DNA of 32,631 nucleotides from a virus, in IMG/VR virus record IMGVR_UViG_3300031521_001878, positions 1 to 32,631 of that record. One strand, 5' to 3'. Each line of letters opens with the position of its first letter. Position 1 is the stretch's first letter. The notes under the pieces are model-generated. The model saw only the letters and a list, made by a program, of their open reading frames with translations, was not told the origin of the DNA and searched no databases. Made by a program: the position numbers and the translations under genes. Of the stretch, positions 20,338 through 22,999 are shown one piece after another.

Positions 20338-21156
20338 ATGGAATTAAAAAAAATTGATAGCGCAATAAAACTTTTAAAATCTGTAAAATGTGACGAAATA
20401 GAATTGTCGTATTCAGGTGGTAAAGATTCAGACGTTATTTTGGAGCTTGCAAAACTTGCAGATATTCCATACAGAGCTATTTATAAGAATACAACCATAG
20501 ACCCAAAAGGAACGATTCTGCACTGCAAAAATAACGGTGTTGAAATAATCAATCCGAAAAAATCATTTCTGAAACTGATAGAACAAAAAGGATTTCCAAC
20601 TATGCGCTGCCGTTTCTGCTGTGACGAATTAAAAGAGTATAAAATACTTGATAATTCAATACAAGGAATTAGAAGGTGTGAAAGCGCAAAGAGAGCTAAA
20701 AACTACAGAGAACCTATTATTTGCCGAATTTACGGAAGCAAAAAAAATCATGTAAACGTAGTTCTACCGATTTTAGACTGGACAGATAATGACGTTTTAG
20801 ATTTTGTTGAAATGCAAAAAATACAATGCCACCCGCTTTATTATGTGAATGGACAATTTGACGTAAAAAAAAGACTTGGCTGTGTTGGCTGCCCATTAAA
20901 AGCAGATAAAGGACTTTCCGATTTTAAAGAAAATCCGAAAATGGTGAAAGCATGGATAAACGCTGGGCAAATATGGTGGGATAAGCCACGAGAAAAGGAA
21001 ATAAAAAGCAAAGCAAAATTTGATAATATACATGAACTTTTTGCACACAACATTTTCTTTTCGAGTTACGAAAATTTTAGATTAGCAAAAGAAGGGTTTT
21101 TCGGAAAAGTTGATTTTAAAGAAAGACTTGAAAATTACTTCGATATTAAACTTTAA
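20338..21156 (+). CDS. PAPS-reductase-family (PP-loop) protein
   Basis: The 272-residue protein has the PP-loop SGGKDS at about residues 26-31, then cysteine motifs RCRFCCDELK and LGCVGCPLK that probably bind an iron-sulphur cluster or zinc, as in phage PAPS-reductase-like and DndC-like proteins. The family adenylates or reduces sulphur substrates. In phages the substrate is usually unknown, and DNA or tRNA sulphur chemistry is a possibility. No dnd or other sulphur genes are nearby. Its stop codon lies within CTTTAACGG, resembling the start of an attC site, so it may be the first gene cassette. Confidence 0.75.
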   Translation: MELKKIDSAIKLLKSVKCDEIELSYSGGKDSDVILELAKLADIPYRAIYKNTTIDPKGTILHCKNNGVEIINPKKSFLKLIEQKGFPTMRCRFCCDELKEYKILDNSIQGIRRCESAKRAKNYREPIICRIYGSKKNHVNVVLPILDWTDNDVLDFVEMQKIQCHPLYYVNGQFDVKKRLGCVGCPLKADKGLSDFKENPKMVKAWINAGQIWWDKPREKEIKSKAKFDNIHELFAHNIFFSSYENFRLAKEGFFGKVDFKERLENYFDIKL

Positions 21157-21262
21157 CGGCTTGAAAAGCCGAGAGCGTGGATAAAAAAAATAAATACGGC
21201 TGCGATAAGCTGTCAAAATGCGAAACGGTGTCTGCCGTGTAGGCATAGGTGATGTTAGCGGT
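21150..21262 (+). repeat. Candidate attC-like site A, chimeric or degenerate
   Basis: The right end GTTAGCGGT (21254-21262) is clear because it is the exact complement of ACCGCTAAC at the end of cassette B (21651-21659). The left end CTTTAAC (21150-21156) overlaps the stop of the PAPS-reductase gene, but the two halves do not pair well. A separate small stem CGGCTT-GAA-AAGCCG follows at 21157-21171. It could be a hybrid attC, an attI-like site, or only a target of cassette insertion. Confidence 0.45.
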
Positions 21263-21316
21263 TAGGTGCTTCTTTCTTATATTTTCAACTATTATTAATC
21301 AAATAAATTCACAATT

Positions 21317-21631
21317 ATGTTAGAAAACGAAAAATTATCCAGTAATAATTTATCAGCTCAACTTGAATTATACTCTGATATTTGTCAGAATTACAGTTCG
21401 ATTCTTCATCACATTTCTGAAAAAGGAACACTGATTCACGAAATTATTCGCAAGTCGAAAAAATCAGACAGTGGCGAAGTAACATTATCTAAAGAAGATT
21501 ACGAAAAACTTTTTGATATTTCTTATATTCTTTCAGATAGAAATAGATATGAAAATCTTGGTATTCTTGCAAAAACAGCAGTTCCAGATAATTTTGTAAA
21601 ATTAAAAATTCTGTCAACTCTAAAGCGGTAG
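21317..21631 (+). CDS. Cassette B gene, small helical protein of unknown function
   Basis: The 104-residue protein is predominantly helical (LSAQLELYSDICQNYSSILHHISEKGTLIHEIIRK) with no signal peptide or membrane segment. No family recognised. It is the only gene between G-TTAGCGG at 21254 and CGCTAAC at 21653, that is, one integron-like cassette of about 487 bp. There is no promoter box close to it, so it depends on upstream transcription. Confidence 0.6.
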   Translation: MLENEKLSSNNLSAQLELYSDICQNYSSILHHISEKGTLIHEIIRKSKKSDSGEVTLSKEDYEKLFDISYILSDRNRYENLGILAKTAVPDNFVKLKILSTLKR

Positions 21632-21650
21632 TCTGTTTTTTTTTGCACTT

Positions 21651-21749
21651 ACCGCTAACGGTGGTTGTATGGTGTCGGTTTGCCTTGCAGACACTTTCAC
21701 ATTACCGCTACATTGTCCGGCAAACTGCACTATACAACGTGTTATAAGC
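21651..21749 (+). repeat. attC-like site B
   Basis: This 99-base imperfect palindrome starts with R''-like CGCTAAC (21653-21659) and ends with R'-like GTTATAA (21741-21747). Arms 21664-21684 (GTTGTATGGTGTCGGTTTGCC) and 21719-21738 (GGCAAACTGCACTATACAAC) pair with a mismatched patch and one extrahelical base, as attC hairpins do. The 34-base loop is unpaired. The predicted crossover is between G21741 and T21742. Confidence 0.75.
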
Positions 21750-21827
21750 TGGGCATTTTAGTTATAAATTAAAAAGGGGAAGGCGAAAACCTTTAAAAGA
21801 GTAGCCAATAGATAAATACATAAATAA

Positions 21828-22118
21828 ATGAAAACAGCAGTTAAAAAAACCGAAGATTGGGCAAATTTTATTTTGCGCAGAATTACAAATGGTGTTGAAA
21901 CTGACACTATGCTTGGCGGATTTTACTCTTATATTGAAAAAGAGAAAAGCCCCGAAACATTTAATGAACTTACTAAAGAATGGGATGCTGACGATTTGAA
22001 AGATTGTTATGCTATAATCACATTTTTTGAAGAATCATTTATGCTACTATACGAAGGTTCTAATTATTACGTGATGACTGACACTGGTGGAACAGTAGCA
22101 AATAGAACTAAAAAGTAA
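21828..22118 (+). CDS. Cassette C gene, small acidic protein of unknown function
   Basis: The 96-residue protein is acidic and mixed alpha/beta (WANFILRRITNGVETDTMLGGF, WDADDLKDCYAIITFFEESFMLLYEGSNYYVMTDTGG). No family recognised. It is the single gene of a cassette bounded by GTTATAAGC at 21741 and GCTTATAAC at 22163, exact complements. The 5' flank after the cassette start (GCTGGGCATTTTA) is nearly the same as that of cassette D (GCTGGGCGTTTAA), suggesting a shared cassette ancestry. Confidence 0.6.
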   Translation: MKTAVKKTEDWANFILRRITNGVETDTMLGGFYSYIEKEKSPETFNELTKEWDADDLKDCYAIITFFEESFMLLYEGSNYYVMTDTGGTVANRTKK

Positions 22119-22123
22119 TTTTA

Positions 22124-22166
22124 AAGCAAGGCACTGACGTTCATTCGGAGCGTTTTTGCCTTGCTT
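22124..22166 (+). terminator. Inverted repeat at the 3' end of cassette C
   Basis: A perfect 10-bp repeat AAGCAAGGCA/TGCCTTGCTT (22124-22133 with 22157-22166) follows the cassette C stop and overlaps the start of attC-like site C. It could be a terminator inside the cassette or part of an older recombination site. No T-run follows the right arm, although TTTTT precedes it. Confidence 0.45.
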
Positions 22167-22297
22167 ATAACGGTGAGTATTGGCGTTGTTGCCGACTTAC
22201 CAGCACGAATTTAACACGTAAAAACGAAACTTATGAATACTGAAAAATTATCAATCGAGAACGAAAACGGCAATAACGCTAATACTGTGTTATATGC
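22163..22297 (+). repeat. attC-like site C, containing the next gene's start codon
   Basis: The site runs from GCTTATAAC (22163-22171) to GTTATATGC (22289-22297). Arms 22177-22194 (GTATTGGCGTTGTTGCCG) and 22268-22285 (CGGCAATAACGCTAATAC) pair at 16 of 18 positions, the two exceptions being G-T wobbles. The left outer segment has two extra bases. Its 73-base loop holds ATG 22233, which opens the frame of the following gene. Length (135) is within the known attC range. Confidence 0.75.
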
Positions 22298-22493
22298 TGG
22301 GCGTTTAAATAAAGGTGACCATTTTCAGACAAGAAAAAACGGCAAATGGTACACCGTACACGCCCAATGTGTTGAGCAAATGAATGACGGTTCAAGCGTA
22401 TTGGGTCGGGGAGAATTTTATACAGTTGCCGTTTGTAGAAAAAAGATGTACGCCTTTGATTACATGCAGGTAGTTTATTCGCCTTGCATATAA
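22233..22493 (+). CDS. Cassette D gene, small beta-rich protein started inside the preceding attC
   Basis: The 86-residue frame begins at ATG 22233 in the loop of attC-like site C and crosses the predicted crossover at 22289. The first 18 or so residues are therefore encoded by the neighbouring cassette's attC. GTG 22287 at the junction is another possible start. The cassette-encoded part reads RLNKGDHFQTRKNGKWYTVHA ... EFYTVAVCRKKMYAFDYMQVVYSPCI, small and beta-rich. The stop TAA lies inside the next R''-like GCATATAAC. Function unknown. Confidence 0.6.
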   Translation: MNTEKLSIENENGNNANTVLYAGRLNKGDHFQTRKNGKWYTVHAQCVEQMNDGSSVLGRGEFYTVAVCRKKMYAFDYMQVVYSPCI

Positions 22494-22583
22494 CGATTTT
22501 GCTATGTGCTGCACGGCATCGTAGAATTTTTCAAGTTACACAAGTGTTTATTTGCCGTGTTGCATATAGCATTTGTTAGCGTT
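22486..22583 (+). repeat. attC-like site D
   Basis: The site runs from GCATATAAC (22486-22494) to GTTAGCGTT (22575-22583). The left arm TTTTGCTATGTGCTGCACGGCA (22497-22518) pairs with the right arm from TGCCGTG (22553) to TAGCATTT (22574), with a mismatched patch and extrahelical bases. The loop is 34 bases. The predicted crossover is G22575/T22576. Confidence 0.75.
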
Positions 22584-22621
22584 TCGTGCTTTATTTTATA
22601 ACTTAAAAAACTAAATATAAA

Positions 22622-22954
22622 ATGAAAACAATTACAGAAGCATCAAAAGAATGTGAATTTCACTCAATCGGAAATCAATCCCATTTTACACCTGAACAAA
22701 TATTTAGGTATGGTGTTGCATTCGCAGAACAATGGATAAAATCAGAAGATGAATTGCCAGAACAAGTTGAAAAACTTATTGGTAATAAAATCAAATCTGA
22801 AAATGTACTTGTTAAACGCAAATGGGATGATACTGGAGAAATAGCAATAGAAATAAATTGCAGGTTTCGCCCTAGTACACGAATAGGTTTTTTGTGGAAT
22901 ATAGAATACAAAGGCTCATCAATTATCGAATGGCGACCGATAGAGCGTTTTTAG
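22622..22954 (+). CDS. Cassette E gene, DUF551-like protein
   Basis: The 110-residue protein has YGVAFAEQWIKSEDELPEQVEKL in the middle and ends W-N-IEYKGSSIIEWRPIERF. This 'FAexWI...eLPE...VLVk...W.....IxeWRPI' layout is like DUF551-type small proteins common in phages and prophages; the match is by eye. It is the sole gene of a cassette bounded by GTTAGCGTT at 22575 and AACGCTAAC at 22959, exact complements. It has phage-like cargo even though it is in a cassette. Confidence 0.6.
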   Translation: MKTITEASKECEFHSIGNQSHFTPEQIFRYGVAFAEQWIKSEDELPEQVEKLIGNKIKSENVLVKRKWDDTGEIAIEINCRFRPSTRIGFLWNIEYKGSSIIEWRPIERF

Positions 22955-22958
22955 CATG

Positions 22959-22999
22959 AACGCTAACAATTTATATGCGTACTTCAAAATTATGCACCA
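22959..22999 (+). repeat. attC-like half site E at the array's right end
   Basis: AACGCTAAC (22959-22967) is the exact complement of the start of cassette E, so it is the R'' end of its attC. The expected left arm (TTTATATGCGTACTTC) follows, but no matching right arm or GTTA end is found before or inside the next gene, which starts at 23000. The site appears truncated, marking the right edge of the array. Confidence 0.55.

Follow-up and report, generated by a model that had tools for sequence, protein, structure and literature searches.

Genes B to E, four small genes of a phage genome, are separated by long palindromes, and the question raised by this locus is whether they form an integron-type cassette array and, if so, what constitutes the mobile unit. 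The window, i.e. the whole stretch of DNA that was analysed, is an IMG/VR virus record of 32,631 bases and carries phage genes (terminase small subunit, endolysin, RecT-like, DnaB-like and NinG-like). An earlier note on this DNA had proposed an integron-type cassette array in a phage: the folded sites, the mirroring and the phage genes stood, but the polarity of the units and the classical IntI machinery did not. From sequence comparison, the window array appears to be one integrase-less (CALIN-like) representative of a cassette system that phages carry and that functions in the manner of an integron.

Anatomy of the array

The four pairs of mirrored cores described in the earlier note were letter-exact (GTTAGCGGT at 21254 with ACCGCTAAC at 21651, GTTATAAGC at 21741 with GCTTATAAC at 22163, GTTATATGC at 22289 with GCATATAAC at 22486, and GTTAGCGTT at 22575 with AACGCTAAC at 22959). 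No other GTTA 9-mer of the window is followed, 150-600 bases further on, by its exact reverse complement, and neighbouring pairs lay side by side; shuffled windows gave a mean of 0.51 pairs and a maximum of 3. The cores retained GTTR, often without the full GTTRRRY consensus. Three long imperfect palindromes were likewise confirmed between the genes (about 21660-21740, 22172-22288 and 22495-22574). When folded as single strands, their + (coding) strands gave -17.5, -20.6 and -14.4 kcal/mol, against -16.0, -16.6 and -12.6 kcal/mol for the other strands, the + strand folding better in all three.

All units are on the + strand. Unit B (21158-21659) contains the core at 21254-21262, gene B at 21317-21631 (104 aa) and the terminal box at 21651-21659. 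To its left, TTTAAC (21152-21157) is followed by a degenerate left site, and the core mirror within the unit is exact. On folding, the region before gene B (21158-21253) gave no long hairpin comparable to the other three, so the left end of this unit is tentative. Unit C (21660-22171) consists of the hairpin (21660-21740), the core (21741-21749), gene C (21828-22118, 96 aa), whose 5'UTR holds a DUF805b-like RNA (21773-21807), and the terminal box (22163-22171).

Unit D (22172-22494) comprises the hairpin (22172-22288), the core (22289-22297), ORF D (22233-22493) and the terminal box (22486-22494); 33 bases are identical to L051 and L102. Its hairpin carries the start codon (22233) and the leader MNTEKLSIENENGNNANTVL. 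Because ORF D starts inside the preceding palindrome, that hairpin is coding, a point overlooked in the earlier note. Unit E (22495-22967) holds the hairpin (22495-22574), the core (22575-22583), gene E (22622-22954, 110 aa) and the terminal box (22959-22967). It is followed by the attI-like sequence AATTTATATGCGTACTTC (22968-22985, +), with no integrase behind it; comparison with the consensus of relatives, AAC|TACTATATGTA, makes this a weak candidate for an attI remnant. In two places the TAA of a terminal TAAC box also serves as a stop codon, for ORF D (22491-22493) and for gene A (21154-21156), which ends just left of the array.

Attachment sites of integron type are represented here by attC-like folded sites, inverted GTTR/YAAC boxes and own-core mirroring. 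With three full hairpin sites, and in agreement with the earlier note no integron integrase in the window (neither tyrosine recombinase there is of integron type), the array falls under the definition of a CALIN (at least two attC-like sites with no integron integrase nearby). An Rfam scan of the array region returned no attC family, its matches being the DUF805b-like element and one chance match, and a pattern search of the window record returned no attC-like strings. The phage collection, queried with the array at the nucleotide level, yielded a single marginal match.

Relatives of individual genes were also inspected. Those of gene B (L011 and L012) were rejected as cassettes, as they were short local matches within other phage proteins, and relatives of the radical-SAM gene 3' of the array (L229-L232) were too distant to serve as an empty site. 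Two further records (L013 and L228) were the window's own phage in another sample (IMGVR_UViG_3300030943_000365). They are 100% identical to the window over 6104 bases, and the contig starts inside unit D; the contig break could reflect variation within the array.

Unit boundaries and gene polarity

Relatives showed the same genes in other orders and beside an integrase, which is what the check proposed in the earlier note would look for. Contig pairs were found that shared an ORF at 98-100% DNA identity between unrelated neighbours. Identity extended from the TAAC left of the hairpin to the unit's own terminal TAAC (L025/L046, L018/L049, L118/L120, L036/L048); the left end of a unit was visible in the L050/L068 alignment, and L020/L037 broke within the hairpin. 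The breakpoints at both TAACs therefore define the unit as hairpin, core, gene and RYYYAAC, and they place the crossover 5' of the gene, at the AAC side of the box (RYYYAA|C). The initial model of a gene with its downstream palindrome, as in the earlier note, was dropped on these alignments, and the cultured phages described below agree that a palindrome belongs with the gene that follows it and with that gene's own terminal RYYYAAC.

A classical cassette has the gene and then attC, with the crossover at G|TT 3' of the gene; here the hairpin precedes the gene and the AAC crossover lies 5' of the hairpin. Since the hairpin is 5' of the gene and the crossover is at RYYYAA|C, gene polarity is reversed relative to a classical cassette. 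Viewed on the opposite strand, the unit is a classical cassette with its gene turned round.

Own-core mirroring, exact in the window as the earlier note had observed, was also far above control in relatives: at least 8 of 9 bases were mirrored in 39 of 48 units, with 4.9 expected when cores were dealt to other units. Of 53 hairpins, 49 folded more stably as the coding strand, which carries RYYYAA|C at its 5' side. The single extrahelical base, where visible by eye, is not on the arm that bears it in classical recombinogenic strands but on the other one, which counts against an integron-like reading.

One of the above pairs (L118 and L120) represents the same cassette present twice, with different neighbours, on a single Massilibacteroides MAG contig (NZ_JAQWCQ010000029.1); some bacterial or prophage contigs therefore also hold such arrays.

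Leader-coding hairpins

Two viral contigs matched by the first residues of ORF D (L014 and L015) have a hairpin that encodes a start codon and the leader MSIENENGNFAKPML..., which stays in frame across the GTTA core and continues into different genes. The leader pattern ..ENGN.A...L was found in 77 stretches of viral contigs, about 70 of which were judged true by reading. Among 84,980 bacterial and archaeal species, searched with one genome per species, the pattern gave 29 stretches, only about six of them true-looking and mostly from Bacteroidetes MAGs. At least 40 codons were open in the leader frame in 55 of 61 distinct cassettes, against 0 and 3 in the other two frames, and the invariant columns in an alignment of 42 cassette proteins were confined to the leader. 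Known domains were recognised in few cassette proteins (three C5 methylases, one Dam, one phosphatase and single weak matches). On this evidence the family appears to consist of phage-encoded integron-like arrays with a leader fused in frame to unrelated genes.

Integrase and attI

In one relative (L060), a tyrosine integrase gene follows the array immediately. Elsewhere, two diverged integrases likewise lie directly downstream of arrays, with the common junction RYYYAAC|TATTATAT. A profile of the three integrases retrieved 217 relatives in viral contigs; 80 of these loci were examined, and 65 distinct integrases had enough upstream sequence for the attI test. The strict attI motif was present in 44 of the 65, usually 53-56 bases before the start codon (0.6 in shuffles), and many of those without it have what look by eye like variants. 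A relaxed motif found no match in 17 of the 80 loci, most of them variant-looking by eye, and this counts against the integron-like reading.

In 41 of 47 loci a mirror of the last unit's core stood upstream of attI, against 2 when the control stretch downstream was used; L194 was left out of this count as a contig-end artefact. Integrases that were 97-100% identical and had the same attI were yet preceded by four different last cassettes. An attI beside an integrase, with cassettes inserted there, was thus found in relatives, and the window has only a weak remnant without an integrase.

The phage integrases scored best with the XerA/integron-integrase model (178-198 bits); on the IntI model TIGR02249 they reached 138-165 bits, below the cut-off of 265. 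Across 50 array records, no integrase exceeded this cut-off, and only sub-threshold Xer/IntI-like matches were returned. The IntI-specific I2 insert was absent from the phage integrases when aligned with the IntI of Shewanella phage M16-3, which shows the insert, and the predicted integrase structure (mean pLDDT 78) showed no additional helix from residue 181 to 198. In the structure model the fold is nearest to XerA and IntI4, and PDB entries 5hxy, 4a8e and 2a3v are the closest solved relatives by sequence and fold. The enzymes keep the residues that we take, judging by the alignment, as the catalytic set. Since the relatives have neither the I2 insert nor the classical cassette polarity, the system is not a classical integron.

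Two MAG sequences were considered separately. L132 was rejected as an array integrase because it looks like a chromosomal Xer. L125, from a Bacteroidetes MAG, encodes an IntI-like integrase without the I2 insert, directly followed by an IS91-type transposase-like ORF; it is possibly a relative of the phage enzymes.

Cultured Polaribacter phages

The best named matches were the Polaribacter phages Leef and Freya. Seven of ten Freya genomes (Freya_1, 2, 5, 6, 8, 9 and 10), derived from a single host strain, were compared over the stretch between a common anchor and the start of the integrase. Base by base, they differed in the compared region by whole units only. The region grew from Freya_1 to Freya_2 (+842 bases), Freya_5 (+902) and Freya_6 (+472); Freya_9 equalled Freya_5 plus 2891 bases, Freya_10 equalled Freya_9 plus 307, and Freya_8 equalled Freya_10 without the 902-base unit. 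Units were mostly added at attI (the integrase end), with one difference inside the array. Simple junctions shared 3-11 bases, in several cases only AAC. Read by eye, some units, such as Freya unit 2 (about 1260-1720 of the Freya_10 region; L214 and its circular join), seem to have the whole gene inside the loop enclosed by the hairpin arms and not behind the core.

Over the stretch that was compared, Danklef_4 differs in lacking a single TAAC-bounded 781-base unit, encoding an adenine methylase, that is present in Danklef_5 and Danklef_1. The Danklef integrase (L233-L235; Danklef_1, 5 and 4) is truncated, its N-terminal part being gone where the gene meets a repeated cassette end, and the methylase cassette is still variable among the isolates despite this truncation. 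In Leef_1, mirrored units run up to an attI-like AAC|GCCCCTATATA. The paper that describes Freya, Danklef and Leef took the integrase as a sign of temperate life, and the word integron is absent from it (Bartlau et al., PMC8776804).

Hairpin units of the same kind surround the methylase genes of Polaribacter phage P12002L. Qi et al. (2023, PMC9892861) reported a CALIN with methyltransferases in this phage and, in E. coli, recombination of one attC site of that CALIN by IntI1. By its sequence, this methylase CALIN looks like the same kind of array, and the sites tested in that work are presumably among the P12002L hairpin units.

Distribution in viruses and bacteria

The exact attI motif gave a single match in 395 Bacteroidota genomes, which was rejected as a chance match inside a gene. 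One large-terminase family, the sole family tried, was matched by 12 of 36 long integrase contigs; some of the metagenomic viral contigs may be misclassified. The scarcity of attI in Bacteroidota, the terminase matches and the cultured phages together indicate that, by the exact motif and in the present data, the system is mainly viral.

Gene C and its RNA leader

Gene C was found in ten other viral contigs (L001-L010) at 70-91% protein identity, without hairpins and with the 5'UTR also present. The 5' leader scored above the Rfam gathering score for the DUF805b element (RF02914) in L008 (3202-3236) and L010 (3939-3973), and below threshold in the window (21773-21807) and in L001. The 96-aa product has no assigned function and goes with the DUF805b element. 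As the gene is free in phages and also present as unit C, an ordinary phage gene with its own regulatory RNA exists as a cassette too. In L002 and L003 the terminator of free gene C ends in GCTTATAAC, letter for letter the terminal box of unit C, a hint that such terminator ends can seed cassettes.

Proposed mechanism and alternatives

We consider it highly probable that the window holds an integrase-less array of mobile units from a phage-encoded integron-like system. Each unit is a cassette, made up of hairpin, GTTR core, gene and RYYYAAC. On its coding strand the hairpin would fold as single-stranded DNA, and a XerA/IntI-like tyrosine integrase lacking the I2 insert would cut it at RYYYAA|C. 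The partner in the joining step would be a double-stranded attI (AAC|TACTATATGTA), located some 50-90 bases ahead of the integrase gene, and new cassettes would in this way enter next to the integrase. Genes point towards attI and the integrase, and the start codon, ribosome site and short N-terminal leader of many genes are supplied by their own hairpin. Comparison shows the anatomy, unit boundaries, shuffling, gain and loss at attI, integrase adjacency and frame fusion. Cutting would be carried out by the phage integrase itself, on a single-stranded substrate that presumably passes through a circle. An integrase of this kind is absent from the window, and both the attI remnant and the first site there are weak, all of which count against this explanation; we infer that the integrase that built the array either acted in trans or has since disappeared.

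The units could instead be classical bacterial cassettes (gene then attC, moved by IntI) that were picked up from the host and are no longer moved by the phage. Folded attC-like sites with GTTR cores and mirrored ends would fit such an origin, and classical integrons and CALINs are already known in phages (PMC9892861). The breakpoints, however, tie each palindrome to the gene downstream of it and cultured phages show the AAC crossover; the 50 array records lack an integrase above the TIGR02249 cut-off, the only exact attI in Bacteroidota is the chance match, and the leader is true in about 70 viral contigs versus about six in the 84,980 genomes. We regard this origin as unlikely.

It is very unlikely that the hairpins are ordinary terminators or regulatory leaders, shuffled by homologous recombination between their repeated copies. 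The terminal core of gene C does overlap a terminator that free copies also have, and some pairs (L020/L037) break inside the hairpin, but repeated hairpins would not account for a core mirrored at each cassette's own far end, for junctions with as little as AAC in common, for insertion concentrated at one site beside an integrase or for the strand bias in folding. Slighter still is the chance that the enzyme is a lysogeny integrase, AAC|TACTATATGTA its attP and the small genes a variable accessory region. This would follow the reading of the integrase by Bartlau et al. as a sign of temperate life (PMC8776804), but it leaves unexplained the mirrored cores and hairpin units, the unit-wise growth at the site among isolates of one phage (Freya) and a one-unit difference far from the integrase (Danklef).

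If the phage-encoded integron-like system is taken further, the chances appear evenly balanced that it represents a virus-borne integron lineage, ancestral to or independent of the bacterial one, that recombines cassettes as folded single-stranded DNA without the I2 helix and produces chimeric proteins whose common N-terminal leader comes from the recombination site.

Relation to known systems and significance

The arrays share with integrons (class 1, Vibrio superintegron) the folded hairpin sites with RYYYAAC/GTTR boxes, own-core mirroring, cassette entry beside a tyrosine integrase and a content of mostly unknown small genes. Unlike integrons, they are carried by phages and have an integrase without the I2 insert; their genes run towards attI and the integrase, on the RYYYAA|C strand, and each gene is preceded on its 5' side by the hairpin, which in many cases codes for the gene's start and leader. 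Among the closest solved relatives of the phage integrase, XerA and archaeal Xer belong to a group of enzymes that act on double-stranded dif, and IntI4 has the I2 helix that the phage enzyme lacks.

The nearest precedent is provided by the phage CALINs and integrons of Qi et al. (2023, PMC9892861), whose P12002L methyltransferase region would be the same kind of array. In the available part of that paper, the sites were treated as those of known integrons, odd directions were attributed to mosaicism, and no dedicated integrase, attI or reversed unit was reported for P12002L. No description of phage-encoded reversed arrays was found in the open-access literature, a scope outside which most subscription papers and all bioRxiv preprints fall. 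The attI1-encoded ORF-11 and the TIR-deficient or fused class 1 cassettes (PMC8876359) are comparable in that a recombination site also supplies the translation start. In class 1 integrons the signal is in attI, or a short attC ORF aids by reinitiation (PMC8876359), whereas the mobile phage hairpin bears the start and in-frame leader of its own cassette's gene.

How I2 could be selected while there were no attC sites, and attC while there was no I2, has been described as a chicken-and-egg problem (Escudero et al., PMC4792948), and integrases without I2 beside attC-like arrays would make it directly testable. Tools built on the classical gene-attC order and on IntI may misread or miss such arrays. 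A hairpin that is both recombination site and protein start would, if true, be an unusual expression route for captured genes. One-by-one gene insertion by integron-like machinery had been regarded as mainly bacterial; if the present reading is true, phages operate a gene-capture platform of their own, one that can be observed in cultured Polaribacter phages. The cargo of methylases and small unknown proteins would presumably serve an arms race with the host, in which cassette methylases may evade restriction, and such gene capture could explain the fast turnover of small phage genes, methylases included.
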